Assembly: GCA_902558075.1 (NCBI GenBank)
Contig: CACECO010000003.1
Location: 1 to 64,000 of the forward strand
Direction: 5' to 3'
Length of the DNA: 64,000 nt
Origin: an uncultured Litorivicinus sp.
GTDB taxonomy: Bacteria; Pseudomonadota; Gammaproteobacteria; Pseudomonadales; Litorivicinaceae
Part shown: positions 4,322 through 64,000 of the stretch, piece by piece
How the letters are laid out: the number at the start of each line of letters is the position of its first letter
Position numbering within the stretch: the stretch's first letter is position 1
Position numbers and translations under genes: made by a program
The notes under the pieces: model-generated
Database searches by the model: none
Told to the model about the DNA's origin: nothing
Seen by the model: only the letters and a program-made list of their open reading frames with translations

Positions 4322-4513
4322 ATGGCGAACAAGAAAATGTTGAAAGTGACATTGGTGCGTAGCCCAATCCGTCAAAAACCAAAGCACAAGTTGTGTGTCC
4401 AGGGTCTTGGCCTGAAGCGTATGCATCAGACTGTCGAAGTTGAAGATACACCGAGCGTCCGTGGGATGATCAATAAGGTCAACTACCTTGTACGCGTAGA
4501 GGGAGAAGCATAA
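4322..4513 (+). CDS. rpmD: 50S ribosomal protein L30
   Basis: Small large-subunit protein with a ferredoxin-like fold. It has 63 residues and the motif [23 protein letters not shown], shortened here to its ends: VTLVRSPI and [12 protein letters not shown]. Its TAA overlaps the rplO ATG by one base. Confidence 0.97.
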
Positions 4514-4947
4514 TGCGTTTGAATGGCTTATCTCCGGCTCGAGGTTCACGCACTGCGAAAAAGCGTGTCGGCCGTGGTATTGGTTCTGGTCTTGGTAAGA
4601 CTGGTGGTCGTGGTCACAAAGGCTTGAAGTCACGTTCAGGCGGTTCAGTGAAGCTTGGTTTTGAAGGTGGTCAGATGCCTTTGCAGCGCCGTCTGCCAAA
4701 ATTTGGTTTCACATCCAGAAAGAGCCTGACTCGGGATGAAATCCGTTTGGCTGAGCTGAACAAGATTCAAGGCGATGAGGTCACAATGGAAGCATTGCGT
4801 CAGGCGCGGCTGATCGGCGAGAACATCAAGGATGTGAAAATTATCTTCGCCGGGGAAATTACGCGCGCCATGACGATTAAGGGTTTGAAGATCACTAAGG
4901 GTGCCCAGGTTGCAGTCGAGGCAGCTGGCGGCAAGGTCGAAGCTTAA
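4513..4947 (+). CDS. rplO: 50S ribosomal protein L15
   Basis: Late-assembly large-subunit protein. The 144 residues equal the E. coli length. The N-terminal third is glycine- and arginine-rich ([20 protein letters not shown]) and the C-terminal domain carries the usual [18 protein letters not shown] ending. Placed directly before secY as in the spc operon. Confidence 0.98.
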
Positions 4948-4949
4948 GT

Positions 4950-6269
4950 ATGGCCACTCCAAGTGCTTCAGGAGGTGGACTGACCGAGCTATGGGCTCGG
5001 CTCCGCTTCGTTGTCATTGCGGTTATTGTATACCGGATCGGTGCTCATATCCCGGTTCCGGGAATTAATCCGGATCGACTGGCCGATTTGTTTGAACAGT
5101 CGCAAGGCACGATTCTGAGCCTGTTCAACATGTTTTCTGGTGGCGCACTCGAGCGGATGTCGATCCTCGCACTGGGAATCATGCCCTACATTTCGGCTTC
5201 GATTGTGATGCAACTACTGACCGCGGTCGTCCCCTCGCTTGAAGCACTAAAAAAAGAGGGCGAGGCCGGGCGTCGAAAGATCACCCAGTATACTCGTTAT
5301 GGAACGGTATTTCTTGCAACGATCCAGTCGATTGGTGTTGCGATGGGCCTTGCCGGTCAAGGCATCGCCTTTACGAACGATTTTCATTTCCATTTCGTGG
5401 CTGTTATGACCTTCGTTTCTGGATCAGTCTTTTTGATGTGGCTTGGCGAACAAGTGACTGAGAAAGGTATTGGTAACGGAATTAGCTTGTTGATCTTTGC
5501 CGGTATTGTTGCTGGTCTGCCGGGAGCGATTGGCCAATCGGCTGAAGCGGCTCGCCAGGGTGATTTGAACATTCTCGGTCTGTTAGCAATTGCAATTATA
5601 GCAGTTGGAGTTGTTGCGTTTGTTGTCTTTATGGAGCGTGCGCAACGCCGTATTACAGTGAATTACGCTCGTCGCCAGCAAGGGAATAAAGTTTTTGCGG
5701 CTCAGCAGTCGCATTTACCATTGAAAATTAACATGGCTGGCGTGATCCCACCGATCTTCGCGTCGAGCTTGTTGTTGTTTCCAGCGTCGATTGGGCAGTG
5801 GTTTGGTCAAGGCGAAGGGATGGAATGGTTGCAAGATTTAAGTCTGGCTTTGGGTCCTGGGCAACCGCTGTATTATCTGCTGTTTACAGTGGGTATTGTG
5901 TTCTTCTGTTACTTCTACACTGCGTTGGTATTTAACCCACGCGATGTGGCAGATAATTTGAAAAAGTCTGGTGCATTCATTCCAGGGATTCGCCCGGGTG
6001 AGCAGTCAGCCAACTATATTGACAAAGTGATGAGTCGATTGACGTTTTGGGGCGCGGCTTATATTGCAGCAGTGTCGCTATTGCCACAAAGTTTGGTCGT
6101 CAGTTTCAACGCGCCATTTTATTTTGGCGGCACATCGCTGTTGATCGTCGTTGTTGTTGTTATGGATTTTATGTCGCAAGTGCAGTCGCACCTCATGAGC
6201 CGGCAATATGAGTCTTTGATGAAAAAATCGAATCTGAAAGGATATGGCTCGGGCGGGTTACTCCGTTAG
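4950..6269 (+). CDS. secY: Sec translocon channel subunit SecY
   Basis: Central pore of the SecYEG translocon in the inner membrane. It exports unfolded preproteins with SecA and inserts membrane proteins with SRP/FtsY. The 439 residues fit ten membrane segments. Diagnostic stretches are [17 protein letters not shown] near the N-terminus, [16 protein letters not shown], and [19 protein letters not shown]. It begins two bases after rplO. Only a weak GGAGG-like site is visible, so coupling to rplO is likely. Confidence 0.98.
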
Positions 6270-6290
6270 ACGGGCATTGGGGGTTTTGAA

Positions 6291-6404
6291 ATGAAAGTAC
6301 GTGCATCAGTAAAAAAGATGTGCCGGAATTGTCGAATTATTCGTCGTAACGGCGTAGTCCGTGTGATTTGTACGGATCCTCGGCACAAGCAGCGCCAAGG
6401 TTAA
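6291..6404 (+). CDS. rpmJ: 50S ribosomal protein L36 (zinc-binding form)
   Basis: Tiny large-subunit protein of 37 residues that reads [14 protein letters not shown]... and ends KQRQG. Zinc ligands C11, C14, C27 and H32 are all present, so this is the zinc-containing form of L36. It lies 21 bases after secY, the usual last position of the spc operon. Confidence 0.97.
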
Positions 6405-6417
6405 TGTAAGAAAGGGG

Positions 6418-6446
6418 TTGAGATTTTCCATTTAAATCAATAAAAT
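6418..6446 (+). promoter_or_regulatory. Predicted sigma-70 promoter for the alpha operon
   Basis: TTGAGA (6418-6423), a 17-base spacer and TAAAAT (6441-6446) form a strong sigma-70-like promoter in the 102-base gap between rpmJ and rpsM. The same bases form a perfect 8-bp inverted repeat (GAGATTTT at 6420-6427, AAAATCTC at 6442-6449). A start near 6453 would leave a leader of about 54 bases before rpsM. In E. coli the leader of this operon is bound by S4; no equivalent pseudoknot was proven here. Confidence 0.65.
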
Positions 6447-6506
6447 CTCGCGCCTTGAAATCTAGGAGAGTCGGTCCGACCGGTTCATGAATTTGGAGAG
6501 TTAAGA

Positions 6507-6863
6507 ATGGCACGTATTGCCGGCGTCAATATCCCAGACAACAAGCACACAGTGATTTCACTGCAGTATGTTTTCGGGATTGGTCAAACTCGCGCTCAAG
6601 CGATCTGTAAAGCAACGGGGATCGCAGAGTCAGCCAGAGTCTCTTCGTTATCCGAAGACCAATTGGAAATGCTCCGTACAGAGGTTGGAAAATTTGACGT
6701 AGAAGGTGACCTTCGTCGTGAAGTGTCAATGAATATCAAGCGCCTGATGGATCTCGGTTGTTTCCGTGGTATCCGTCATCGTCGCAGTCTGCCAGTTCGT
6801 GGACAGCGTACCAAGACAAACGCGCGGACCCGCAAGGGTCCACGTAAGCCGATTCGTAAGTAA
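6507..6863 (+). CDS. rpsM: 30S ribosomal protein S13
   Basis: 30S head protein that contacts the P-site tRNA and forms bridges to L5. The 118 residues start [19 protein letters not shown], and the C-terminal tail [20 protein letters not shown] is the classic S13 ending. A GGAGAG site precedes the ATG. First gene of the alpha operon. Confidence 0.98.
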
Positions 6864-6872
6864 GGAATTCTG

Positions 6873-7262
6873 ATGGCGACACAGCGTAACGCATCGCGTA
6901 AGAAGGTCAAAAAGCAGGTTGCTGAGGGCGTTGTTCATATTCACGCTTCGTTCAACAACACGATTATTACGATTACTGATCGTCAAGGTAACGCGCTGTC
7001 ATGGGCGACAGCTGGTGGATCTGGTTTCCGGGGTTCACGTAAATCAACACCATTTGCCGCGCAGGTTGCCAGCGAACGAGCTGCAACGGCTGCTCAGGAA
7101 TTTGGTCTGAAATCGGTGGATGTCATGGTTAAGGGCCCAGGACCTGGTCGCGAGAGTGCAGTTCGCGCTCTCAATGCAGTGGGCCTTAAAGTTACCAATA
7201 TCACAGACGTCACGCCGATCCCTCATAACGGTTGTCGTCCGCCAAAAAAGCGTCGCGTCTAA
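6873..7262 (+). CDS. rpsK: 30S ribosomal protein S11
   Basis: 30S platform protein at the mRNA exit side. The 129 residues match the family. [20 protein letters not shown] and the C-terminal [19 protein letters not shown] identify it. Good AAGGAA site; follows rpsM by nine bases. Confidence 0.98.
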
Positions 7263-7276
7263 GGAGAGTTAGAGCA

Positions 7277-7897
7277 ATGGCACGTTACATCGGACCAACT
7301 TGTAAGTTAGCGCGTCGCGAAGGAACTGATTTGTTCTTGAAGAGTGGCGTCCGTTCAATGGACTCAAAGTGCAACCTGGAAACCAAACCAGGGATGCACG
7401 GTGCAGCACGTGGTCGCTTGTCGGACTATGGTCTGCAGTTACGCGAAAAGCAGAAAGTGCGTAGGATCTATGGTGTGCTTGAGAAGCAGTTCCGTAACTA
7501 TTATAAAGAAGCGTCGCGTTTGCGTGGTTCAACAGGCGAAAACCTGCTCAAGCTTCTCGAATGCCGTTTAGACAACGTTGTTTACCGGATGGGCTTTGGC
7601 TCAACACGCGCGGAAGCGCGTCAGATAGTCAGCCATCGATCAATTATGGTGAATGGCAAAGTATTGAATATCCCTTCTTATCAGGTGAGGCCGGGTGATC
7701 TGATCAGCGTTCGCGAAAAAGCGAAGGGTCAGTTGCGTGTTCGCGCTGCACTTGAACTCGCTGGTCAGCGTGCAGACGTTCCTTGGGTTGATGTTGATTC
7801 ATCGAAGATGGAAGGAACATTCAAGACGTTTCCAGAGCGTCAAGACCTGTCGCAGGACATCAACGAAAATCTGATTGTTGAGTTGTACTCGAAGTAA
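7277..7897 (+). CDS. rpsD: 30S ribosomal protein S4
   Basis: Primary 16S rRNA binder that nucleates 30S assembly and, in E. coli, represses the alpha operon. The start at [18 protein letters not shown] has an AAGGAGAG site upstream and gives 206 residues, the E. coli length; a longer frame would start inside rpsK. The S4 RNA-binding domain is about residues 95-155 ([20 protein letters not shown]). Confidence 0.98.
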
Positions 7898-7918
7898 ACC
7901 AAATTATTAGGAGACGGT

Positions 7919-8908
7919 ATGTCGTCATTGGAACTGCTGACACCGCGTCAGATTCAGGTCCAGGAGGTAGCTCCCGGACGCTCAAAAATTATTCTTGAGC
8001 CTCTTGAGCGCGGCTATGGCCACACCTTGGGTAATGCACTCCGCCGCATCTTGCTGTCGTCAATGCCAGGATGCGCGATTATCGAGGCAAAAATCGACGG
8101 TGTTGCCCACGAGTACTCAGAAATCGAAGGCATTAAGGAAGATGTCATCGAGATTCTTTTGAATCTTAAAAAGGTTGCAGTCGCCCTGGAGGGCCGCGAT
8201 GGTGCGGCAACAATACGCCTGAATCACTCGGGTGAAGGTGTTGTCACCGCTGGCGACTTCGAATTGCCACAGAACGTTGAAATAGCGAACCCGGAACAGC
8301 ATATCGCAACAGTGTCAGAGCGAGGCTCCTTGCAGATTGAAGCGATTGTGGCACGTGGTTTAGGCTACGAACCGGCAAGCGAGCGTGATGAAGACGAGGA
8401 GACCCGTACGATCGGCTCGTTGCGTTTGGATGCAACATACAGCTCAGTTCGTCGCGTCTCGTATGTTGTTGAAAGCGCTCGAGTTGAACAGCGTACTGAC
8501 CTTGATAAATTAGTGATCGATCTTGAAACGGATGGGACGTTGGATGCTGAGGAGGCAATCCGTCGTGCTGCGACTTTGTTGCAGCAACAACTTTCTGTTT
8601 TCGTTGAATTCGAAGGCCTTCAGGCTACTCCTGAAGACGAGCAGAAGGACGAGATTGATCCGATCTTGTTGCGTCCAGTGGACGATCTCGAGTTGACTGT
8701 TCGCTCCGCGAACTGCTTAAAAGCGGAAAACATTTATTACATTGGCGATCTTGTTCAGCGGACTGAAGTTGAGTTATTGAAAACCCCGAACCTCGGCAAA
8801 AAATCATTAACAGAGATCAAAGATGTGTTGGCCTCGCGCGGTTTGTCGCTGGGCTCGCGTCTAGAGAATTGGCCACCAGCAGGATTTGCGCGCGAAGAAA
8901 GCGCCTAA
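7919..8908 (+). CDS. rpoA: RNA polymerase alpha subunit
   Basis: Alpha subunit of RNA polymerase; the dimer scaffolds beta and beta-prime. It has 329 residues, as in E. coli. The N-terminal assembly domain (to about 235) includes [20 protein letters not shown]. The C-terminal domain (about 250-315) includes [20 protein letters not shown] and the helix-hairpin-helix [16 protein letters not shown], which binds UP elements and activators. GGAGAC site upstream. Confidence 0.98.
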
Positions 8909-8919
8909 GTTAGATCGAC

Positions 8920-8933
8920 CCGTCGTGAGACGG
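8920..8933 (+). other. Small hairpin between rpoA and rplQ
   Basis: CCGTC-GTGA-GACGG is a 5-bp stem closed by a GNRA tetraloop in the 50-base spacer between rpoA and rplQ. No U-tract follows, so it is not an intrinsic terminator. It may be an mRNA processing or stability element; function unknown. Confidence 0.35.
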
Positions 8934-8958
8934 TGACTTTGAGAAGCGAGAATAGACC

Positions 8959-9327
8959 ATGCGTCATTTGAAAAGCGGAAGAAAACTGAATCGTACAAGC
9001 AGCCATCGGAAGGCGATGTTCTCGAACATGACTGCTTCGTTGATTGAGCATGAGGTCATCAAGACGACACTACCAAAAGCGAAAGAACTCCGTCGGGTTG
9101 CAGAGCCTTTGATTACTTTGGCAAAGAACGATTCAGTGGCAAATCGTCGTCTAGCATTTAGCCGATTACGTAACGATTCAGCGGTCGGTAAGTTGTTCGC
9201 TGAGCTTGGGCCTCGTTATCAGGAACGTCCTGGCGGATACATGCGTATTTTGAAGTGCGGTTTTCGTGCCGGTGACGCAGCCCCAATGGCGATTGTCGAG
9301 CTTGTCGATCGTCCAGAAATTTCCTAA
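8959..9327 (+). CDS. rplQ: 50S ribosomal protein L17
   Basis: Large-subunit protein near the exit tunnel. It has 122 residues starting [20 protein letters not shown], with [20 protein letters not shown] near the C-terminus. Slightly shorter than E. coli L17 (127). Last gene of the alpha operon. Confidence 0.98.
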
Positions 9328-9383
9328 CGCTCAGCGATCTCAGACTCGAGCGTCGGCGTTACTCGCTGTGCGTCTCAATGCAT

Positions 9384-9409
9384 AGAAAGAGCGATTAGGC
9401 GCTCTTTCT
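9384..9409. terminator. Bidirectional hairpin between rplQ and uvrA
   Basis: AGAAAGAGCG (9384-9393) and CGCTCTTTCT (9400-9409) form a 10-bp stem with a 6-base loop. It lies downstream of rplQ and overlaps the last codons of convergent uvrA (stop at 9395). It could serve both transcripts. The trailing U-rich part is mostly inside the stem, so strength is uncertain. Confidence 0.6.
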
Positions 9410-12229
9410 TCGTTCAAGGAGAGGTTTGAGGAATCGGCCTGTATGCGAGTTTGGTGATTGAGCCACTGCCTCAGGGGTCCCTTCAGCAATAATTTGCCCA
9501 CCGCCAGAGCCACCCTCAGGGCCTAAATCAATAATCCAATCTGCGGTTTTGATGACGTCAAGGTTGTGCTCAATCACGACTACCGTATTGCCATGATCAC
9601 GAAGGCGGTGTAACACAGCGAGTAGTTGCTTGATATCTTCAAAATGAAGTCCCGTTGTCGGCTCATCGAGGATATAGAGTGTTCTACCAGTATCACGCTT
9701 TGAAAGTTCGCGAGCTAATTTAACACGCTGGGCTTCGCCACCTGATAATGTGGTCGCTGATTGTCCGAGCTTAAGGTATGACAGTCCAACATCGACTAGC
9801 GTTTGTAATTTCCGAGCGAGCGTCGGAATGGCGTCAAAAAACTCCCGGGCATCCTCAACTGTCATTTCGAGAATGTCGTGGATTGATTTGCCCTTATAGA
9901 GAATATCTAGGGTCTCCCGGTTATACCGAAGACCTTTACAGGTATCACACGGAACATAAATATCTGGGAGAAAGTGCATCTCGACTTTGATAAGTCCATC
10001 GCCTTGGCAAGTTTCACAGCGGCCACCTTTCACGTTAAACGAAAAACGGCCCGGACTGTAACCCCGTGAGCGTGCTTCCTGGGTTTCAGCAAAGATTTCA
10101 CGAATTGGCGTAAATAGTCCCGTATAAGTTGCAGGGTTCGACCGTGGTGTTCGTCCAATTGGACTTTGATCGATATCGACGACTTTGTCGAGTTCATGAA
10201 TCCCATGGCAATGTTCAAATGGAGCCGACTTCAACGTATTGGCTTTGTTCAACACCTTTGCGGTATGTGGGTAAAGGGTGCGATTGATTAGTGTCGATTT
10301 TCCAGAGCCAGAGACTCCTGTGACGCAGGTTAATAGGCTTAACGGAAGATTTAATGTGACACGCTGTAGATTATTTCCCGTACATTCTTCAATCGTCAGA
10401 TGATGAATTCCTTTTGTATGACGTTTTGCTGGTATCGCAATTTCCTTACGGCCAGAAAGATACTGCCCCGTTACTGACTGCTGATTTTTGATCACCTCTT
10501 GAGGTGTTCCGGCAGCAACGATCTCTCCGCCATGGACCCCTGCGCCAGGACCAATATCAACTAGGTAGTCAGCGCTTCGCATTGCGTCTTCATCATGTTC
10601 AACCACAATGACTGTGTTGCCCAGATCTCTCAGATGAAAAAGTGTGTTCAGCAGACGCTCATTGTCTCGTTGATGGAGTCCAATCGATGGCTCGTCAAGG
10701 ATGTACATGACTCCAACCAGTCCAGCACCAATTTGACTGGCTAACCGAATACGTTGTGCTTCTCCACCGGATAGTGTCTCAGCACTCCTATCCAGTGATA
10801 AATAATCAAGCCCGACATTGACCAAAAAGCCAAGGCGAGCCTGGATCTCTTTAAGAATCTTGTCTGCAATTTCTTGACGTCTTCCCGGAAGATTCAGGGA
10901 GTTAAAAAATGTATAGCACTCACCGATGGGTAGTTTGACCAGTTCTGGTAGTCGAGTTTGATCAATAAAAACGTTGCGCGCCGCAATATTGAGGCGAGAG
11001 CCCCCACAATCAGGGCAGGGGGCATGTGTCATGAGTTTTGCGAGCTCGTCGCGTTGCGATTGACTGTCTGTTTCTTTGTAACGACGCTCGAGATTACGAA
11101 TCACACCCTCAAATGGGTGATTCTTAGTCACCTCACGGCCACGGTCCGATACGTAGCTGAAATCAATTGATTCAGAATCGGAACCGTAAAGTACTTTGTG
11201 TTGGTGATATTCAGATAGATCTTGCCATTCGGTGTCGACGTCAAATCCATAGTGTCGCGCGATGCACTTTAGCAAGTGGTAGTAGTACATGCTCCGTCGG
11301 TCCCATCCTTTGATAGCGCCTGACGACAATGAGAGTTCAGAATCGACAATCAATCGATCAGGATCAAAATATTGGTGCACGCCTAAACCATCGCAGGTTT
11401 GACAGGCTCCGAATGGACTGTTGAATGAAAAGACCCGTGGTTCAAGCTCGGGTATCGAGTATCCACAGAGTGAGCACGCAAACTTTGACGAAAACATCAA
11501 AGGCTCAAAAGCGTCGTCCATTGACCGGATGATTATCTGTCCGTCGGACAACGTCAGACCTGTTTCGATGGATTCGGCTAAACGAAGGCGTTGCGTATCG
11601 TTTACTTTTAACCGATCAACAACGGCATCGATCGAGTGTTTCTTCTTCTTATCTAGTGCGGGAACTTCATCTAAATCCACGACTAGGCCGTCCACACGAA
11701 CGCGAATAAAACCTTGAGATTTGAGCTCCTGGAAAATGTGAAGATGCTCTCCTTTACGGTCACTAATCATTGGTGCAAGCACTAAAATTTTTGAATCTTC
11801 GGGAAGAGCGAGTACCTGATCAACCATTTGGCTGACCGTTTGTGCCTCAAGGCTTAAATCATGATCTGGACAACGAGGCTCACCGGCTCTCGCGTAAAGC
11901 AGTCTTAGATAATCGTAGATTTCAGTGATCGTACCGACTGTCGAACGAGGGTTATGGCTCGTTGATTTCTGTTCAATTGAAATTGCTGGGGAGAGGCCCT
12001 CGATATGGTCAACGTCAGGCTTTTCCATCATCGATAAAAACTGTCTTGCATACGCAGACAGTGATTCGACATAGCGTCGTTGGCCTTCAGCATAGAGTGT
12101 GTCAAAGGCAAGCGAAGACTTACCTGATCCAGACAGACCGGTAATCACAATCAGTTGGTCGCGCGGGAGATCCAGATGAATATTCTTCAGGTTGTGGGTT
12201 CGCGCCCCACGAATTTGTATCGAGTCCAC
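9395..12229 (-). CDS. uvrA: Excinuclease ABC subunit A (UvrA)
   Basis: DNA-damage sensor ATPase of nucleotide excision repair that loads UvrB. It has 944 residues, the usual size. First Walker A is [14 protein letters not shown] (about residue 33); the second is [17 protein letters not shown] (about 640). Two ABC signatures are visible ([16 protein letters not shown] and [16 protein letters not shown]). Zinc modules are seen as CSLCGY...CQTC and CETCQGD...CDTCKG. The start is GTG with a weak GGA upstream. Divergent from ssb, as in many gammaproteobacteria. I saw no clear LexA box (CTGT-N8-ACAG) in the gap. Confidence 0.98.
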
Positions 12230-12342
12230 AGCGGTCCGTCTTATATTTGTGACAAAAAGGCCAGTGTATCTTTTGATAGGGGTTTAATGTATCGATTCAA
12301 TGCGAAAAATTGGAACTCTCGCATACATAGCTTCGATGGTCG

Positions 12343-12371
12343 CTGACAGATACACGTCCGTGCTACATTAT
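12343..12371 (+). promoter_or_regulatory. Predicted sigma-70 promoter for ssb
   Basis: CTGACA (12343-12348), a 17-base spacer and CATTAT (12366-12371) lie 35 bases before the ssb ATG in the uvrA-ssb gap. An AGGAAG ribosome-binding site follows (12396-12401). The -35 box is 5/6 and the -10 box 4/6 of consensus. Confidence 0.45.
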
Positions 12372-12406
12372 AGTTTGTAGTGGTACTTTTCACATAGGAA
12401 GAATTC

Positions 12407-12877
12407 ATGGCTCGTTCGGTAAACAAAGCCACATTGATTGGAAATCTCGGTAACGATCCGGAAATGAAGGCACTGCCGTCGGGCAGTCAGGTTGCGAACT
12501 TGAGCATCGCAACGACCGACTCTTGGCGCGATCGTAATAGTGGTGAAATGCAAGAACGTACCGAGTGGCATCGAGTTGTTTGTTTTGACCGCTTGGCTGA
12601 GATTTGTGGGCAGTATCTGCGTAAAGGATCACGTATTTACATTGAGGGCAGTCTGCGAACTCGTTCGTGGGAGCAGGATGGTCAAAAGCGCTACGCAACA
12701 GAAATTGTTGGTCGTGAGATGATGATGTTAGATGGTCGAGGTGAGACTGATATGGGCGCACAGGCTCCGATCCAGTCGCACTCTCAAAGTGCCCTATCCC
12801 CTCAGCAACAGGCTGCTCAGCAACCTGTGAGTCAGCCGATGCCTGATCCAAATATCGATGACGAAATCCCGTTCTAA
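12407..12877 (+). CDS. ssb: Single-stranded DNA-binding protein
   Basis: Tetrameric protein that coats ssDNA in replication, repair and recombination. It has 156 residues: an OB-fold domain (about 1-112, [19 protein letters not shown] through [10 protein letters not shown]), a Gln/Ser/Pro-rich linker, and the acidic tip DDEIPF that recruits partner proteins such as RecQ, PriA and RecJ. The 3' end overlaps the next gene by 20 bases. Confidence 0.98.
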
Positions 12878-60822: not shown

Positions 60823-60888
60823 CGCGAGTCTGGTCATCGGCGAACCACAGGCTGTTGATTTGTTCGCTTCTTTCTCGATGGTGAGTTG

Positions 60889-61299
60889 ATGAATCCGTGG
60901 ATCGCGCATCTTGAAAATCAGGATTTGAAATGGATCGTAGACTATGGTCAAGGGGTCTATTTGGATCCAGGAATCGATGTGTATTTCCCGAAACCGACAT
61001 TAATTCTTGACGGGCAACTTGAGTGTCGAGGTCATGTTCGAGGTAGTGGGGCGTTACTGGGAATTTCAGAATGGTATCTTGAGGTCGACCGAGGCGCGCG
61101 TTGGAGTGTTATTACACCCGTTTGGGCACTCGAGTTACCACTGACCCGTCAACATCGAACGACTTGGAGCGTTGCGATTGCTGTTGCGATGTCCGCTGAA
61201 ATTCGGCTGGCACAACCTGATACCCGCGGCCTTGCTGATGTGGAAGCGGCTCGTTTGAAATTCCGGTATGTTGTGAGTCAGTTAGAGACCACTTTATGA
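60889..61299 (+). CDS. Unknown small protein, cupin/cNMP-domain-like
   Basis: 136 residues; ATG 60889 with GGTGAG upstream (a TTG directly before it is also possible). Almost all beta: the pattern YLDPGIDVYFPKPTLILDGQL, then GSGALLGISEWYL and WSVITPVWALELPL looks like the jelly roll of cyclic-nucleotide-binding domains, without their phosphate-binding FGE...RxA cassette. First of four tightly spaced genes; 66 bases after lysS, ten bases before the next. Fold call is inference; function unknown. Confidence 0.6.
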   Translation: MNPWIAHLENQDLKWIVDYGQGVYLDPGIDVYFPKPTLILDGQLECRGHVRGSGALLGISEWYLEVDRGARWSVITPVWALELPLTRQHRTTWSVAIAVAMSAEIRLAQPDTRGLADVEAARLKFRYVVSQLETTL

Positions 61300-61308
61300 G
61301 GGACCAAA

Positions 61309-61815
61309 GTGGCTGAAGAAAAGCGCCAATCGGCGACAGATAGTTTAGGATTGCCCCGCCGGATGTGGTGGCTGTGGCCTTTTGTAGTTCTGTTGATTGT
61401 GATCTGGGCAATCAGTTTGTGGGCAGTTCGAGTCGCAGATACGCAAGGAACGCTTGGTGTTGTGACCTCACACCGTGGGCTTGGCAATACCGCACGGGCT
61501 GAAGTCGCGCTATTCGTCCCCTCGACTATTCGATCACGTGTGCTTGGTGAGCGCGTTGATGTGACATGCCAAGACGTGACGCTGATCGGCCAAGTGTTTA
61601 CCGAGTCGGGTGATATTTTGTCTGTTCAAGATATTCGCGACTGGGTTGGTAGCCGATTATTGGCAGAGCGTTTGTTTAATCAAGGCGTTCGATTACAACA
61701 AGTTGTTACCGAGTCGGATGCGAATATCCCGGCGCCAGGCGAACATTGTAACGTGACATTGATCAGCGGGCGTGTTCGTCTCATCGATCTATTAGGCCGT
61801 AGCTTAAACCCATGA
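61309..61815 (+). CDS. Single-pass membrane protein, truncated adaptor-like
   Basis: 168 residues, GTG start with GAGGGA upstream. One membrane helix (about 19-42) after a short cytoplasmic tail, so most of the protein is periplasmic. The region EVALFVPSTIRSRVLGERVDV and IGQVFTES resembles the last beta-barrel part of HlyD-type secretion adaptors; the lipoyl and coiled-coil parts are absent. Cys87 and Cys147 could form a disulfide. Its stop overlaps the next start (ATGA). Assignment tentative. Confidence 0.55.
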   Translation: MAEEKRQSATDSLGLPRRMWWLWPFVVLLIVIWAISLWAVRVADTQGTLGVVTSHRGLGNTARAEVALFVPSTIRSRVLGERVDVTCQDVTLIGQVFTESGDILSVQDIRDWVGSRLLAERLFNQGVRLQQVVTESDANIPAPGEHCNVTLISGRVRLIDLLGRSLNP

Positions 61816-63041
61816 CAGCGACTTTAGATGGCTTTATTGCAACCGGAGCGACTTTTGAAGCTGTCGCCGATGAAGCTGATTCACTCGGATATCAGTTGAG
61901 AGAACGTCGTTTGAAGCCACCAGTCTCTGGATCTGTTTTTGTGGATCAACATGGCCACCTGCAGCGTGTGCGTTTTCAAATGTTTGGTTGGGTTATGAGT
62001 ATTGATGGCGACTCAAAGATCCATATTATTCGGTGGCGAAAGGCTTTTACGGTCGGCGGATACGTGCTTGAGCCTGAGGTAGCTGATTATCGACTGACTA
62101 TACAATGGCTTGCCTTGACTTTAGTGGTCCTCGCACGATTACTGCTCCTGCTACTGGTTAGCATCCTCGGTCAGGTCAATGACTTATCGTTGACTCCGCT
62201 TTGGATTTTAACAGCCCTCATTTTGGCATCGACGACTTACACTTCAATCACATTAATTCACAGATCGCAGTGGCGCGACCTTGAAGTAGCGTTAGATGCG
62301 ATGGCGCCTGATTGGATTCCAAGATTATCCAGAGACGTTGGTGGACGTATCCTCGCATGTTGCACGATTCTAGGGATGTTGATTCTTGATAGTGTCTTGC
62401 AACTGTCCACATCAATTTGGGTGGTGGGGCTGGGTTTCTTGTTTCTTGATCTGATGCCAACGCGTCATTTCAAACAAGCGCGAGCGATTACTCAGAAACC
62501 TCGAGTCCGGATTGAACGAGCGCCAAGAAAAATGATGGACGAGCTGCTCGAGCTACTTCATCTCAAAGGCTCGGGAGTGCACGTGTTACGAACTCAGGTT
62601 CCAGAGATACTCTTGCGTGCAAGCGAGGAACTGGTTCGTCAAGGCCAGCCAATTACCGTTCTAGGTCCAGAATCCGAGTTCTTGCCGGGTACGTTAAGGA
62701 GTAACTTTGCCTGGGATGCGAGCGACGAGGGTGAATACCATTTCGCTAATTTGATGGAATTGATTGGATTGACCTATTGGCGAGAACGTTTCGGTGATTC
62801 ACTCAATTATCAAATCGGACCTAACAATCAAGGTCTCTCATCCTCAGAAGCAGCCGCGTTGGCAGTCGCTCGTGCACTTGCGCAAGGTGCGGATACCTTA
62901 ATTTTAATCGATGCGTTAGCGCCTTTATCGGCCGATAGGCAAATGGAGCTACTGAACCGATTAGGTTTTGCGAATTGTCGTATTTTTGTGTTTTCCAGCG
63001 TGTCTGACTTATGGGAAGGTGATACCAATGAACTCGACTGA
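61812..63041 (+). CDS. Membrane protein with degenerate ABC-exporter ATPase domain
   Basis: 409 residues. Soluble N-terminus (1-95) ending WRKAFTVGGYVLEPEV, vaguely like the end of a C39 peptidase-like domain; membrane helices near 97-120, 126-150, 178-196 and 200-215; C-terminal domain 245-409. The last part follows exporter ATPases in order: ITVLGPESEFLPGTLRSNF (post Q-loop), YQIGPNNQGLSSSEAAALAV (signature region) and TLILIDALAPLS (Walker B place). Walker A is GSGVHVLR (no GKS/T), and the Walker B Glu is Ala368. Predicted not to hydrolyse ATP. Overlaps both neighbours. Confidence 0.6.
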   Translation: MTATLDGFIATGATFEAVADEADSLGYQLRERRLKPPVSGSVFVDQHGHLQRVRFQMFGWVMSIDGDSKIHIIRWRKAFTVGGYVLEPEVADYRLTIQWLALTLVVLARLLLLLLVSILGQVNDLSLTPLWILTALILASTTYTSITLIHRSQWRDLEVALDAMAPDWIPRLSRDVGGRILACCTILGMLILDSVLQLSTSIWVVGLGFLFLDLMPTRHFKQARAITQKPRVRIERAPRKMMDELLELLHLKGSGVHVLRTQVPEILLRASEELVRQGQPITVLGPESEFLPGTLRSNFAWDASDEGEYHFANLMELIGLTYWRERFGDSLNYQIGPNNQGLSSSEAAALAVARALAQGADTLILIDALAPLSADRQMELLNRLGFANCRIFVFSSVSDLWEGDTNELD

Positions 63042-64000
63042 ATCGCAAGTCTTTCAGCTCGCAGCCGGCAACGTCTCAGCAGGTCTTGCGAGAGACCGCT
63101 TATGGCAGGTCAAAGAAGGTGAGGCGAGACTCCGCCTTCTGATCTCAGACGATGAAATTGGAACCATGCCAGTTCCTGAATCAGGTTGGTTTCTGGTTCC
63201 TGAGTCGAAGTATTTACGTATTCAGTTAATCGCAGACACAGCGATCTCGTTTGAAAGTCGGCTCCCACTTAGTCTGATTCCGCGACTTGGTGATCTTGGA
63301 CGTCATCAGTTGATTCAACCCATCCGTCAGATGATGTCTGTCGTGGGTGTTGATGATAGTGTCATCGACTGGAGCGTGAAGCTAGCGCAACCCACATTCC
63401 GGTCTTGGTTCGGTGAGTCATTGGATCAGTCGATTAGGCTCGCTCAACCAATGTCACCCGATATTATGACGCCACTGATTGCTGATCATGTGCCGCGACC
63501 AATGTTGGAGCAGGATTCGCTACCTGAAGAACGTCGCGCGCTACCTGTCTTGGTGACTGCATCGATCTTATCGATTGTGGCTGTTGTGAGTTGGCTTTGC
63601 GCGTTAGTGACCCTTGAAGCACCAGGTTTTGCGCTGAGTTATCAATATTCTAATGCCGCGCTTGGAAGCCTAGGTATTGTTGCGTTGGCTGTTTGGGTAA
63701 TTCATTTGTTCGCCCAGTATTATCGTGACGTATCACTTGTTGGTTTAGCGGCTGCTTTAGCAATGATGATACTGATCCTTCTTTTCGAAGCCCCAAAAAT
63801 TGCCATCTCGCTGATCTTTTCAGGAGGTCTGATCGGCGTTGCTTATTGGGTCTATGTGCGACGATTGCTTCCTGAACTTCCAGCGATTGACCAGCCCATG
63901 CGTTGGTTATCGCTTCGGTTGTCGCGTGATGGAGTCCCTTCCGTTAGGGAACGTGTACTCAAAGTTTGGGATCAAGCACGTCAGTGGGTTATCGCACGGA
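63028..64000 (+). CDS. Partial multi-pass membrane protein, probable exporter subunit
   Basis: Open frame from ATG 63028 (overlaps the previous gene by 14 bases) to the window edge, 324 residues without a stop. Soluble N-terminus (1-170) starts VFQLAAGNVSAGLARDRLWQ and VKEGEARLRLLI, a beta-rich domain. Four helices follow near 173-195, 210-230, 234-254 and 257-277. I recall a similar N-terminus followed by TM and ATPase domains in NHLM-type ABC exporters; whether an ATPase domain follows here lies outside the window. Confidence 0.6.
   Translation, partial: MNSTESQVFQLAAGNVSAGLARDRLWQVKEGEARLRLLISDDEIGTMPVPESGWFLVPESKYLRIQLIADTAISFESRLPLSLIPRLGDLGRHQLIQPIRQMMSVVGVDDSVIDWSVKLAQPTFRSWFGESLDQSIRLAQPMSPDIMTPLIADHVPRPMLEQDSLPEERRALPVLVTASILSIVAVVSWLCALVTLEAPGFALSYQYSNAALGSLGIVALAVWVIHLFAQYYRDVSLVGLAAALAMMILILLFEAPKIAISLIFSGGLIGVAYWVYVRRLLPELPAIDQPMRWLSLRLSRDGVPSVRERVLKVWDQARQWVIAR

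Follow-up and report, generated by a model that had tools for sequence, protein, structure and literature searches.

It is well established that an ABC exporter can carry one dead ATP site, and PMC7756269 describes such degenerate sites as staying under selection. Searches of open-access literature, mostly at the level of listings, yielded no description of a conserved system in which both ATP sites are dead and the peptidase and the outer-membrane arm have been lost as well. Here, we analyze an operon that is built from exporter-like parts and is characteristic of HIMB30/OM252 ('Litoricola'), a single marine genus of Gammaproteobacteria. According to PMC8269220, its clade is cosmopolitan in the sea and has cultured members.

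The operon lies at the right end of the window, that is, the whole stretch of 64,000 nucleotides analyzed, on a contig of 148,596 bases. On the forward strand, g1 occupies 60889-61299 (136 aa, ATG start, with an alternative in-frame TTG start at 60886) and is followed by g2 at 61309-61815 (168 aa), g3 at 61812-63041 (409 aa) and g4, which starts at 63028 and leaves the window at 64000. Since the contig continues beyond the window edge, extending it rightward allowed the cut g4 to be read to its end at contig position 64860 (610 aa in full) and revealed a fifth coupled gene, g5, beyond the window at contig positions 64853-65317 (154 aa). The operon on the extended contig therefore comprises five genes, with measured spacings of +9, -4, -14 and -8 bases. 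A sequence-only reading of this DNA had described four coupled genes with a gap of 10 and overlaps of 4 and 14 bases; the open reading frames and both overlaps agree, and the first gap is corrected to 9. A promoter and terminator scan gave no more sites than shuffled sequence.

At least part of the operon was found in 21 of the 22 genomes of the genus, and 18 of the 22 carry g1-g5 on a single contig in identical order, with the 4-base overlap of g2 and g3 kept in every one of these complete loci. Gene coupling is far above chance, and the genes that had been treated as one set are indeed kept together across the genus. One complete locus (G002) has a g4 match without the first 38 residues, and g5 aligns poorly in G006. 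The operon was not found in three genomes of the sister genus, and wider samples of the class and phylum gave chance matches only. Among class genomes, the g2 profile matched a single genome besides its own (G126, E 6.7e-4); we judged this to be chance because the match falls on the opposite strand of a gene read as peptidyl-tRNA hydrolase. The g4 N-terminal profile likewise matched one genome besides its own in the phylum sample (E 8.8e-4), which was dismissed as chance on account of five internal stops. Of 63 gene-by-pair comparisons over 13 genome pairs, 58 allowed dN/dS to be computed, and every ratio lay within 0.00-0.17 (dS exceeds 1 in some); reading frames stay open down to 42% identity among members. 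Purifying selection acts on each gene of the operon.

g3 consists of an N-terminal alpha/beta region, a hydrophobic stretch at about residues 99-214 and a truncated NBD, and g4 of an N-terminal domain, a hydrophobic stretch at about residues 174-276 and an NBD; in one locus (L041) the g4 hydrophobic stretch reaches residue 378. We aligned 7 g3, 7 g4, 11 NHLM and 22 control NBDs, the controls being intact by construction since all were chosen for an intact Walker A. The Walker A lysine, catalytic glutamate and H-loop histidine are missing from the g3 and g4 domains but kept in the 11 NHLM domains; the Q-loop residues are also gone, and neither g3 nor g4 contains a complete Walker A/B plus signature site in this alignment. 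The g3 domain is without Walker A and has alanine in place of the Walker B glutamate, and its GLSSSE is invariant. In g4, a P-loop-like EGAGL[ST]TL carries leucine instead of the Walker A lysine in all 18 aligned members, the signature is changed, the His-loop is lost, and the Walker B glutamate is replaced by histidine in most members shown. Invariant columns make up 37/62 of the motif windows versus 37/144 of the rest of the NBD in g4, and 45/72 versus 20/91 in g3, the windows having been selected with the alignment already in view.

Because both NBDs lack the Walker A lysine, the Q-loop, the Walker B glutamate and the H-loop, ATP hydrolysis is very unlikely, and the sequences give good support to the view that the g1-g5 complex would not pump at the expense of ATP. 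The alignment bears out the earlier claim of a broken ABC ATPase in g3. A live ATPase further to the right, which had also been suggested, is excluded for the rest of the operon since the g4 NBD is dead and g5 is of cNMP type, not an ATPase; rightward to contig position 79999, no further g3 or g4 match was found. The sequence-only reading as a whole is thus partly supported: the exporter-like parts stand, and the live ATPase does not.

The g3 NBD scores Z 20 against the NHLM ABC1 profile. In the AlphaFold2 model of g3 (pLDDT 69.5), residues 232-409 align with the ComA NBD 3vx4_A (Z 13.8, rmsd 3.1, 169 aligned), and Foldseek matches of the model are heterodimeric ABC exporters, PCAT1 and HlyB (8dck_A); as modelled, g3 has an NBD fold. 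For g4, profile evidence indicates that the NBD fold is present: the NBD scores Z 34 against NHLM ABC2, a first profile run gave 108 against ABC1 and 96 against ABC2, and all 18 members match TIGR03797 (best E 1e-15), although the protein of the window genome, with 47.6 bits over its NBD part, does not reach the cut-off of 709.4. A BFVD fold search added nothing.

AlphaFold2 predicts g2 to consist of one TM helix followed by the HlyD-type membrane-proximal barrel only (pLDDT 75). The hairpin and lipoyl parts are absent from the model, and at 168 aa the modelled protein has no space for a hairpin reaching an outer-membrane channel. In its structural list, all but one of the top 21 entries are adaptors (20 entries, Z 8.0-9.9), headed by ZneB (9.9), MacA (9.8) and EmrA (9.4); unrelated barrels (UPF1, F1-ATPase) follow at Z 7-8, 8.0 and below, and the HlyD chain 7sgr_C of the HlyB/D complex aligns over residues 7-168 at Z 7.8, amid unrelated rows. 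The best Foldseek match (E 0.019) is a non-adaptor. An end-to-end profile comparison with the NHLM HlyD C-terminus gave Z 5.2, with -0.4 and -0.1 for two mismatched-domain controls; this value is partly post hoc, as the test was picked after local tests. Those local comparisons with NHLM HlyD were not significant (7/100 shuffles as high for the C-terminal part, 47/100 for the whole), nor was a narrower local window (3/150). g2 has no TIGR03794 (HlyD) match, the 11 matches of that model over cut-off do not include the window genome, and the g2 profile gave no convincing match among PDB sequences. Taken together, g2 appears to be a HlyD-type adaptor reduced to its membrane-proximal barrel, with modest structural support; model, structural list and end-to-end profile agree with its first description as a one-helix protein resembling an adaptor's last domain.

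g1 had been called cNMP/cupin-like. Its profile aligns with two NHLM-locus cNMP proteins at Z 5.8 (0/100 shuffles as high), but hhalign gives a probability of only 8% and none of the 18 members matches PF00027 in Pfam; against PDB sequences the profile found no cNMP match and nothing convincing. The g1 alignment has 37 invariant columns. The protein is possibly a degenerate cNMP-type (CAP_ED) domain protein, a case that is weak overall. For g5 the cNMP case is much better: 15 of 19 members match PF00027 (best E 5.9e-5), with 13.0 bits in the window genome, below the Pfam gathering score of 27.5, and NHLM-locus cNMP proteins are also matched by profile. g5 is thus probably a degenerate cNMP-type domain.

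The order cNMP-HlyD-ABC1-ABC2 is common to the operon and the intact NHLM loci L069 and L070, in which HlyD was called by TIGR03794, the cNMP and ABC2 genes of L069 by Pfam and the others by reading; an additional gene in L069 is presumably TolC-like. This shared order upholds the NHLM-like set of export parts recognized at the outset. A cNMP gene was seen in only 2 of 10 fetched NHLM loci, several of them cut or hard to read. Since NHLM profiles were the only ABC profiles compared, the Z values speak for NBD homology and not for NHLM origin. The best HMM families of g3 are CydD and CydC, and HMM scores place g4, whose top family is HlyB, equally near to HlyB, CydC, CydD and NHLM ABC2, so that a CydDC-like or other exporter ancestor is possible. 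The NBD tree gives no origin for g3 or g4 because their stems are too long (8.9 and 7.0 changes per site, respectively).

The C39 peptidase (PF03412) and TIGR03798 leader peptides were found in 0 of the 22 genus genomes, and TIGR03793 leader peptides in none over cut-off. Sub-cut-off TIGR03793 matches occur in 6/22; the two inspected (in G012 and G007) look like nitrile hydratase alpha subunits, judging from the active-site motif. No precursor peptide gene had been noted in the window, and with these models none was found over cut-off in the 22 genomes. The N-terminal region of g3 is possibly a C39 rudiment. g3 has no TIGR03796 (C39-ABC) match, Pfam C39 matches 0 of 18 members, and residues 1-95 contain no invariant Cys or His. 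Local comparisons with C39 were not significant (Z 0.2 and 0.5), and a global one (Z 2.3, 4/150 shuffles as high) aligned a part that is not collinear. No C39 fold appeared among the VIA-align results for g3, although the program itself rated this part as barely tested. A loose pattern alignment is compatible with a C39 rudiment. Descent of the g4 N-terminus from that of NHLM ABC2 was not significant in shuffle tests; by eye, the two share a short collinear WxVxxG-like motif.

Unlike the conserved operon genes, an MFS gene directly downstream is disrupted in the genome from which the window comes. In three other loci read in detail (L024, L031 and L039), the MFS gene has a 4-base overlap with g5. 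Aspartoacylase homologues, present in 13/369 class genomes at E 1e-30, have no comparable operon alongside, as judged from the first 70 letters per ORF; some have single ABC genes nearby. PADLOC anti-phage defence models assigned 0 families to g1-g5 and the upstream aspartoacylase at E 0.01.

We propose, with a probability of about 0.5, that the operon goes back to a type-I/NHLM-like exporter whose catalytic activity disappeared and whose remaining parts persist as a membrane complex that does not pump but acts as a scaffold or ligand-responsive regulator. The ancestor would have been a peptide exporter made of a cNMP-domain protein, a HlyD adaptor and two ABC half-transporters; catalysis would have been lost long ago, and a stable non-pumping inner-membrane complex retained since. 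g3 and g4 would pair via their NBD-like domains, and only one of the two composite sites would keep both remnants, with EGAGL[ST]TL of g4 opposite LSSSE of g3. This site may bind a ligand or serve only to keep the two proteins paired. On the cytoplasmic side, g1 and g5 would dock, and g2 would cap the complex in the periplasm. A scaffold or ligand-responsive membrane regulator, and not an energised transporter, appears to be the most likely function. More tentatively, a single conversion in the genus ancestor may have turned a peptide exporter into a non-pumping receptor or regulator, with pseudo-ATPases sharing one composite ligand site, g2 as a short periplasmic cap and the two cNMP-type domains as cytoplasmic input or output. 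If the proposal is true, the operon would be a natural test of what the ABC fold is capable of without ATP. Its function could be tested directly, since the records of HIMB30 and LSUCC0096, which we take to be cultured strains, carry it.

The complex could still transport, either as a channel of passive or secondary type or as a pump powered by another ATPase or an ion gradient, with g3 and g4 as its membrane part; we regard this as unlikely, if worth weighing. Membrane segments are kept in both proteins, but they are short: a crude scan places them at about residues 101-212 in g3 and 174-276 in g4, compared with roughly 255-275 hydrophobic residues in an intact NHLM pair. The g2 model matches EmrA-type adaptors, partners of MFS pumps, yet has no hairpin to reach TolC. 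As partner, the MFS gene beside g5 could serve, with a near-full-length match in 9/20 genus loci, although it is broken in 2/20 and unmatched in 8/20, or else an opposite-strand ABC exporter-like gene that lies 3-4 kb downstream of the operon in 6/20.

Rather improbable, in our judgement, is a one-site nucleotide switch, in which ATP or another nucleotide, bound without hydrolysis at the g4/g3 site, gates the complex, much like the degenerate sites of ABC heterodimers. The retained halves are complementary (P-loop-like and signature-like) and highly conserved, and degenerate sites of known exporters stay under selection (PMC7756269). The leucine found in all 18 g4 members and the loss of the Q-loop and H-loop residues argue against it. 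Replacement of the Walker A lysine by leucine normally abolishes ATP binding. That the operon is a decaying relic, a dead exporter kept by chance, is already disfavoured and very improbable: several parts are shorter than their intact counterparts, the upstream aspartoacylase was not found in 17/22 genomes (some incomplete), two loci have a disrupted MFS gene and g5 aligns poorly in one genome, but the low dN/dS, the open frames, the constant gene order and the greater conservation of the altered motifs relative to other NBD positions all speak for maintenance.

Compared with NHLM/NHLP systems, the NBDs and g5 match by profile and g2 fits the HlyD C-terminus end to end, whereas the operon proteins stay below curated cut-offs and lack the C39 domain, ATPase motifs and leader peptides; the operon also has a truncated adaptor, shortened membrane regions and a second cNMP-type gene at its end. 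It recalls HlyB/HlyD in the alignments of the g2 model with 7sgr_C and the g3 model with 8dck_A and in the top family of g4, but has no working NBD or long adaptor hairpin and uses two different half-transporters. CydDC resembles it through the best families of g3 and the equally good matches of g4, unlike it in the NBD motifs that g3 and g4 have lost; CydDC is not known to have HlyD or cNMP partner genes. PCAT1 ranks 2, 5 and 10 among the Foldseek matches of the g3 model, but with low TM-scores (~0.3), and g3 has neither a Walker A nor an invariant Cys/His in its first 95 residues. Although both sites are degenerate in g3/g4 and none is canonical, the operon shares with TM287/288, TmrAB and CFTR, as described in PMC7756269, an asymmetric loss of motifs between the halves and the conservation of a degenerate site.

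An operon of five coupled, exporter-like genes, g1 to g5, lies 3' of lysS on the plus strand, and it is real, conserved and specific to the genus (HIMB30/OM252 'Litoricola'). g1 (60889-61299) is followed by g2 (61309-61815), g3 (61812-63041), g4 (63028-64860, 610 aa) and g5 (64853-65317, 154 aa), with successive spacings of 9, -4, -14 and -8; the end of g4 and the fifth gene, g5, were read on the extended contig, beyond the window. The source contig is 148,596 bases long and belongs to a 1.51 Mb draft genome that is 72% complete.

Using g4 as the query against 57 genomes, we found a specific match in 20 of the 22 genus genomes; elsewhere among the 57, the three sister-genus genomes included, the matches shown fell only on ABC-protein ATPase domains. 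A 21st genus genome (G018) carries g1-g3 and then reaches its contig end, and the 22nd (G004, 60% complete), where the operon was not matched, shows no full-length match to lysS either. In 18 genomes the complete set of five occupies a single contig in constant order, with a 4-base g2/g3 overlap in every one and little variation in the remaining spacings; in one of the 18 (G002, locus L036), the g4 match lacks its first 38 residues. The operon of G007 is split across two contigs, and G006 has only a partial g4 and an oddly aligned g5. This g5 (locus L040, G006:C4) is 38% identical to the window's, compared with 65% for its g4, possibly reflecting a frameshift or assembly error. Across genus members, protein identity to g1-g5 ranges from 99% down to 42%.

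By g4 identity, the closest named records come from Gamma proteobacterium HIMB30 and from two genomes labelled 'uncultured Litoricola' (93-94%), and the g4 of LSUCC0096 is 84% identical. In our reading, the clade carrying the operon is OM252; the main text of the OM252-clade paper (PMC8269220) does not use the terms secretion, bacteriocin, cyclic nucleotide, HlyD or peptide export. Among 293 genomes from the order, a profile of the g4 N-terminal/membrane part found matches in 11, every one inside the genus. Two sister-genus genomes have lysS followed directly by an opposite-strand gene, and none of g1-g5 was found there. Two further matches were rejected: the g4 profile hit 2 of 349 genomes in the phylum sample, the own genome and a chance match with stops inside, and a g2 profile hit 2 of 369 in the class sample, the own genome and one chance match.

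dN/dS was 0.00-0.17 in all 58 computable values (Nei-Gojobori, 13 genome pairs); five of the 63 values in the set were saturated, and dS exceeded 1 in some others. An MFS gene lies 3' of g5 in part of the genus (Pfam MFS_1 for L039); in the three loci examined closely, it shares 4 bases with g5. Among 20 loci, its match is near-full-length in nine, weaker in L040, absent downstream of g5 in eight and broken into pieces in two, L026 and the window's own genome, where the remnant sits beside g5 at contig positions ~65309-66430 (L002:5310-6431), right of the window. The low dN/dS and the broken MFS gene together indicate that the core g1-g5 is maintained while its direct neighbour decays.

On the 5' side, an aspartoacylase/AstE-type gene (PF24827, E 1e-11) occurs in 5 of 22 genus genomes, standing directly 5' of g1 in divergent members (L037:3991-5118; in oriented coordinates, L041 4057-5184, L039 to 912 and L152 1802-2926). 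It overlaps the g1 start by 4 bases in G003, G011 and G020 and likewise on the G007 contig, and runs into the contig end in G006. Six genomes have a g4 no more than 65% identical to the window's; five of them carry this gene and G015 lacks it. The gene is plausibly ancestral and lost in the window's group. No such operon adjoins its homologues elsewhere in the class. Separately, opposite-strand ABC exporter-like genes with a weak match to g3, which we take to be CydC/CydD-like, were found in 6 of 20 loci, 3-4 kb beyond the 3' end of the operon (oriented, L041 10896-14164, L042 3912-7165 and L039 7604-9208; also L028, L029 and L036).

The ATPase domain (NBD) of g4 matches HlyB (E 9e-14), NHLM ABC2 (9e-13), MsbA-related (1e-12) and CydC/CydD (~1e-11) families, each matched by 18 of 18 g4 members; the family matches of g3 are weaker, the best being CydD (6e-7). 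Residues 232-409 of g3 are an NBD in the predicted structure (ComA NBD, Z 13.8, rmsd 3.1, 169 aligned). Alignment with 11 NHLM and 22 other NBDs revealed that the Walker A lysine, Q-loop Gln, catalytic Glu and H-loop His are absent from the seven g3 and seven g4 members shown. g4 retains a P-loop-like EGAGL(S/T)TL, with Leu replacing Lys in 18 of 18 aligned members; g3 has no Walker A segment and carries an invariant GLSSSE at the signature position. Invariant columns make up 37/62 of the altered motif windows versus 37/144 of the rest in g4 (Fisher p 4e-6), and 45/72 versus 20/91 in g3 (p 1e-7), the windows having been picked with the alignment in view. A g3-g4 heterodimer would possess a single composite site with both remnants, the P-loop-like segment of g4 against the LSSSE of g3.

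The AlphaFold2 model of g2 (pLDDT 75) consists of a TM helix and a small barrel. Foldseek matches were weak (best E 0.019, to TdpAB; none below 0.001); the adaptors MacA, MexA, ZneB and Spr0693 ranked near the top, frequently with a probability >0.9. Adaptors filled 20 of the top 21 VIA-align rows, including ZneB (Z 9.9, rmsd 2.6, 91 aligned), MacA (9.8), BesA (9.6), EmrA (9.4), AcrA and MexA; the unrelated barrels UPF1 and F1-ATPase came next (Z <=8.0). HlyB/D complex chain 7sgr_C scored within this unrelated-barrel range against g2 residues 7-168 (Z 7.8, rmsd 4.5, 129 aligned). End-to-end profile comparison of g2 with the NHLM HlyD C-terminus gave Z 5.2 (0/150 shuffles; mismatched-domain controls -0.4 and -0.1), and local profile tests gave no significance. 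g5 is cNMP-type by profile comparison (Z 19); PF00027 is matched by 15 of 19 g5 members, the window's own falling below the cut-off, and PDB sequence matches are weak, with cGMP-dependent protein kinases at the top (E 0.004). The cNMP evidence for g1 is weaker (profile Z 5.8, yet hhalign probability 8%), and Pfam and PDB searches lent it no support. Profile tests of the N-terminal regions, g3 against C39 and g4 against NHLM ABC2, gave no significant match.

No C39 Pfam match was found in 18 g3 members, and PF03412 matched 0 of 22 genus genomes versus 8 of 14 controls. Nif11 leader peptides were detected in 0 of 22 and in one of 14 controls, and the NHLP leader model exceeded its cut-off in none of the 22 and in no control. 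Six of the 22 gave sub-cut-off NHLP matches; the two loci inspected (L118:1105-1737 and L119:1027-1683) are nitrile hydratase alpha-like and, judged by motif, presumably encode alpha subunits, proteins that can mislead searches for leader peptides.

Taken together, the sequences offer good support for the view that g1-g5 would not act as an ATP-driven peptide exporter, and the operon is best read as an exporter converted to a non-pumping membrane complex. Our best inference for its role, with a probability of about 0.5, is a scaffold or ligand-responsive regulator.

Peptide export of the NHLM type was described in a founding paper (PMC2887384). Gene order, NBD matches, the g5 match and the end-to-end g2 match favour an NHLM-like ancestor. 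Conversely, CydC/CydD and HlyB score as well as the NHLM families, and in the initial profile comparison, which covered NHLM ABC profiles only, the score of g4 was higher with NHLM ABC1 than with ABC2. The NBD tree does not decide between ancestors (its g3 and g4 stems are 8.9 and 7.0 changes per site long). An NHLM-like ancestor is likely but not proven. NHLM HlyD exceeded the cut-off in 11 of 369 class genomes. Two of the ten NHLM loci compared, the intact L069 and L070, are ordered cNMP gene, HlyD, C39-ABC, ABC, with an extra gene, presumably TolC-like, inserted before HlyD in L069. The L069 locus (4323-12806) adjoins an oppositely oriented 675-aa gene, which we take to resemble a B12-type radical SAM protein. 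By a crude hydropathy scan, the membrane part covers about residues 101-212 of g3, where the model has four long helices in the hydrophobic region, and about residues 174-276 of g4, reaching 378 in L041, whereas that of the intact ABC pair of L069 is longer, at about 255-275 residues.
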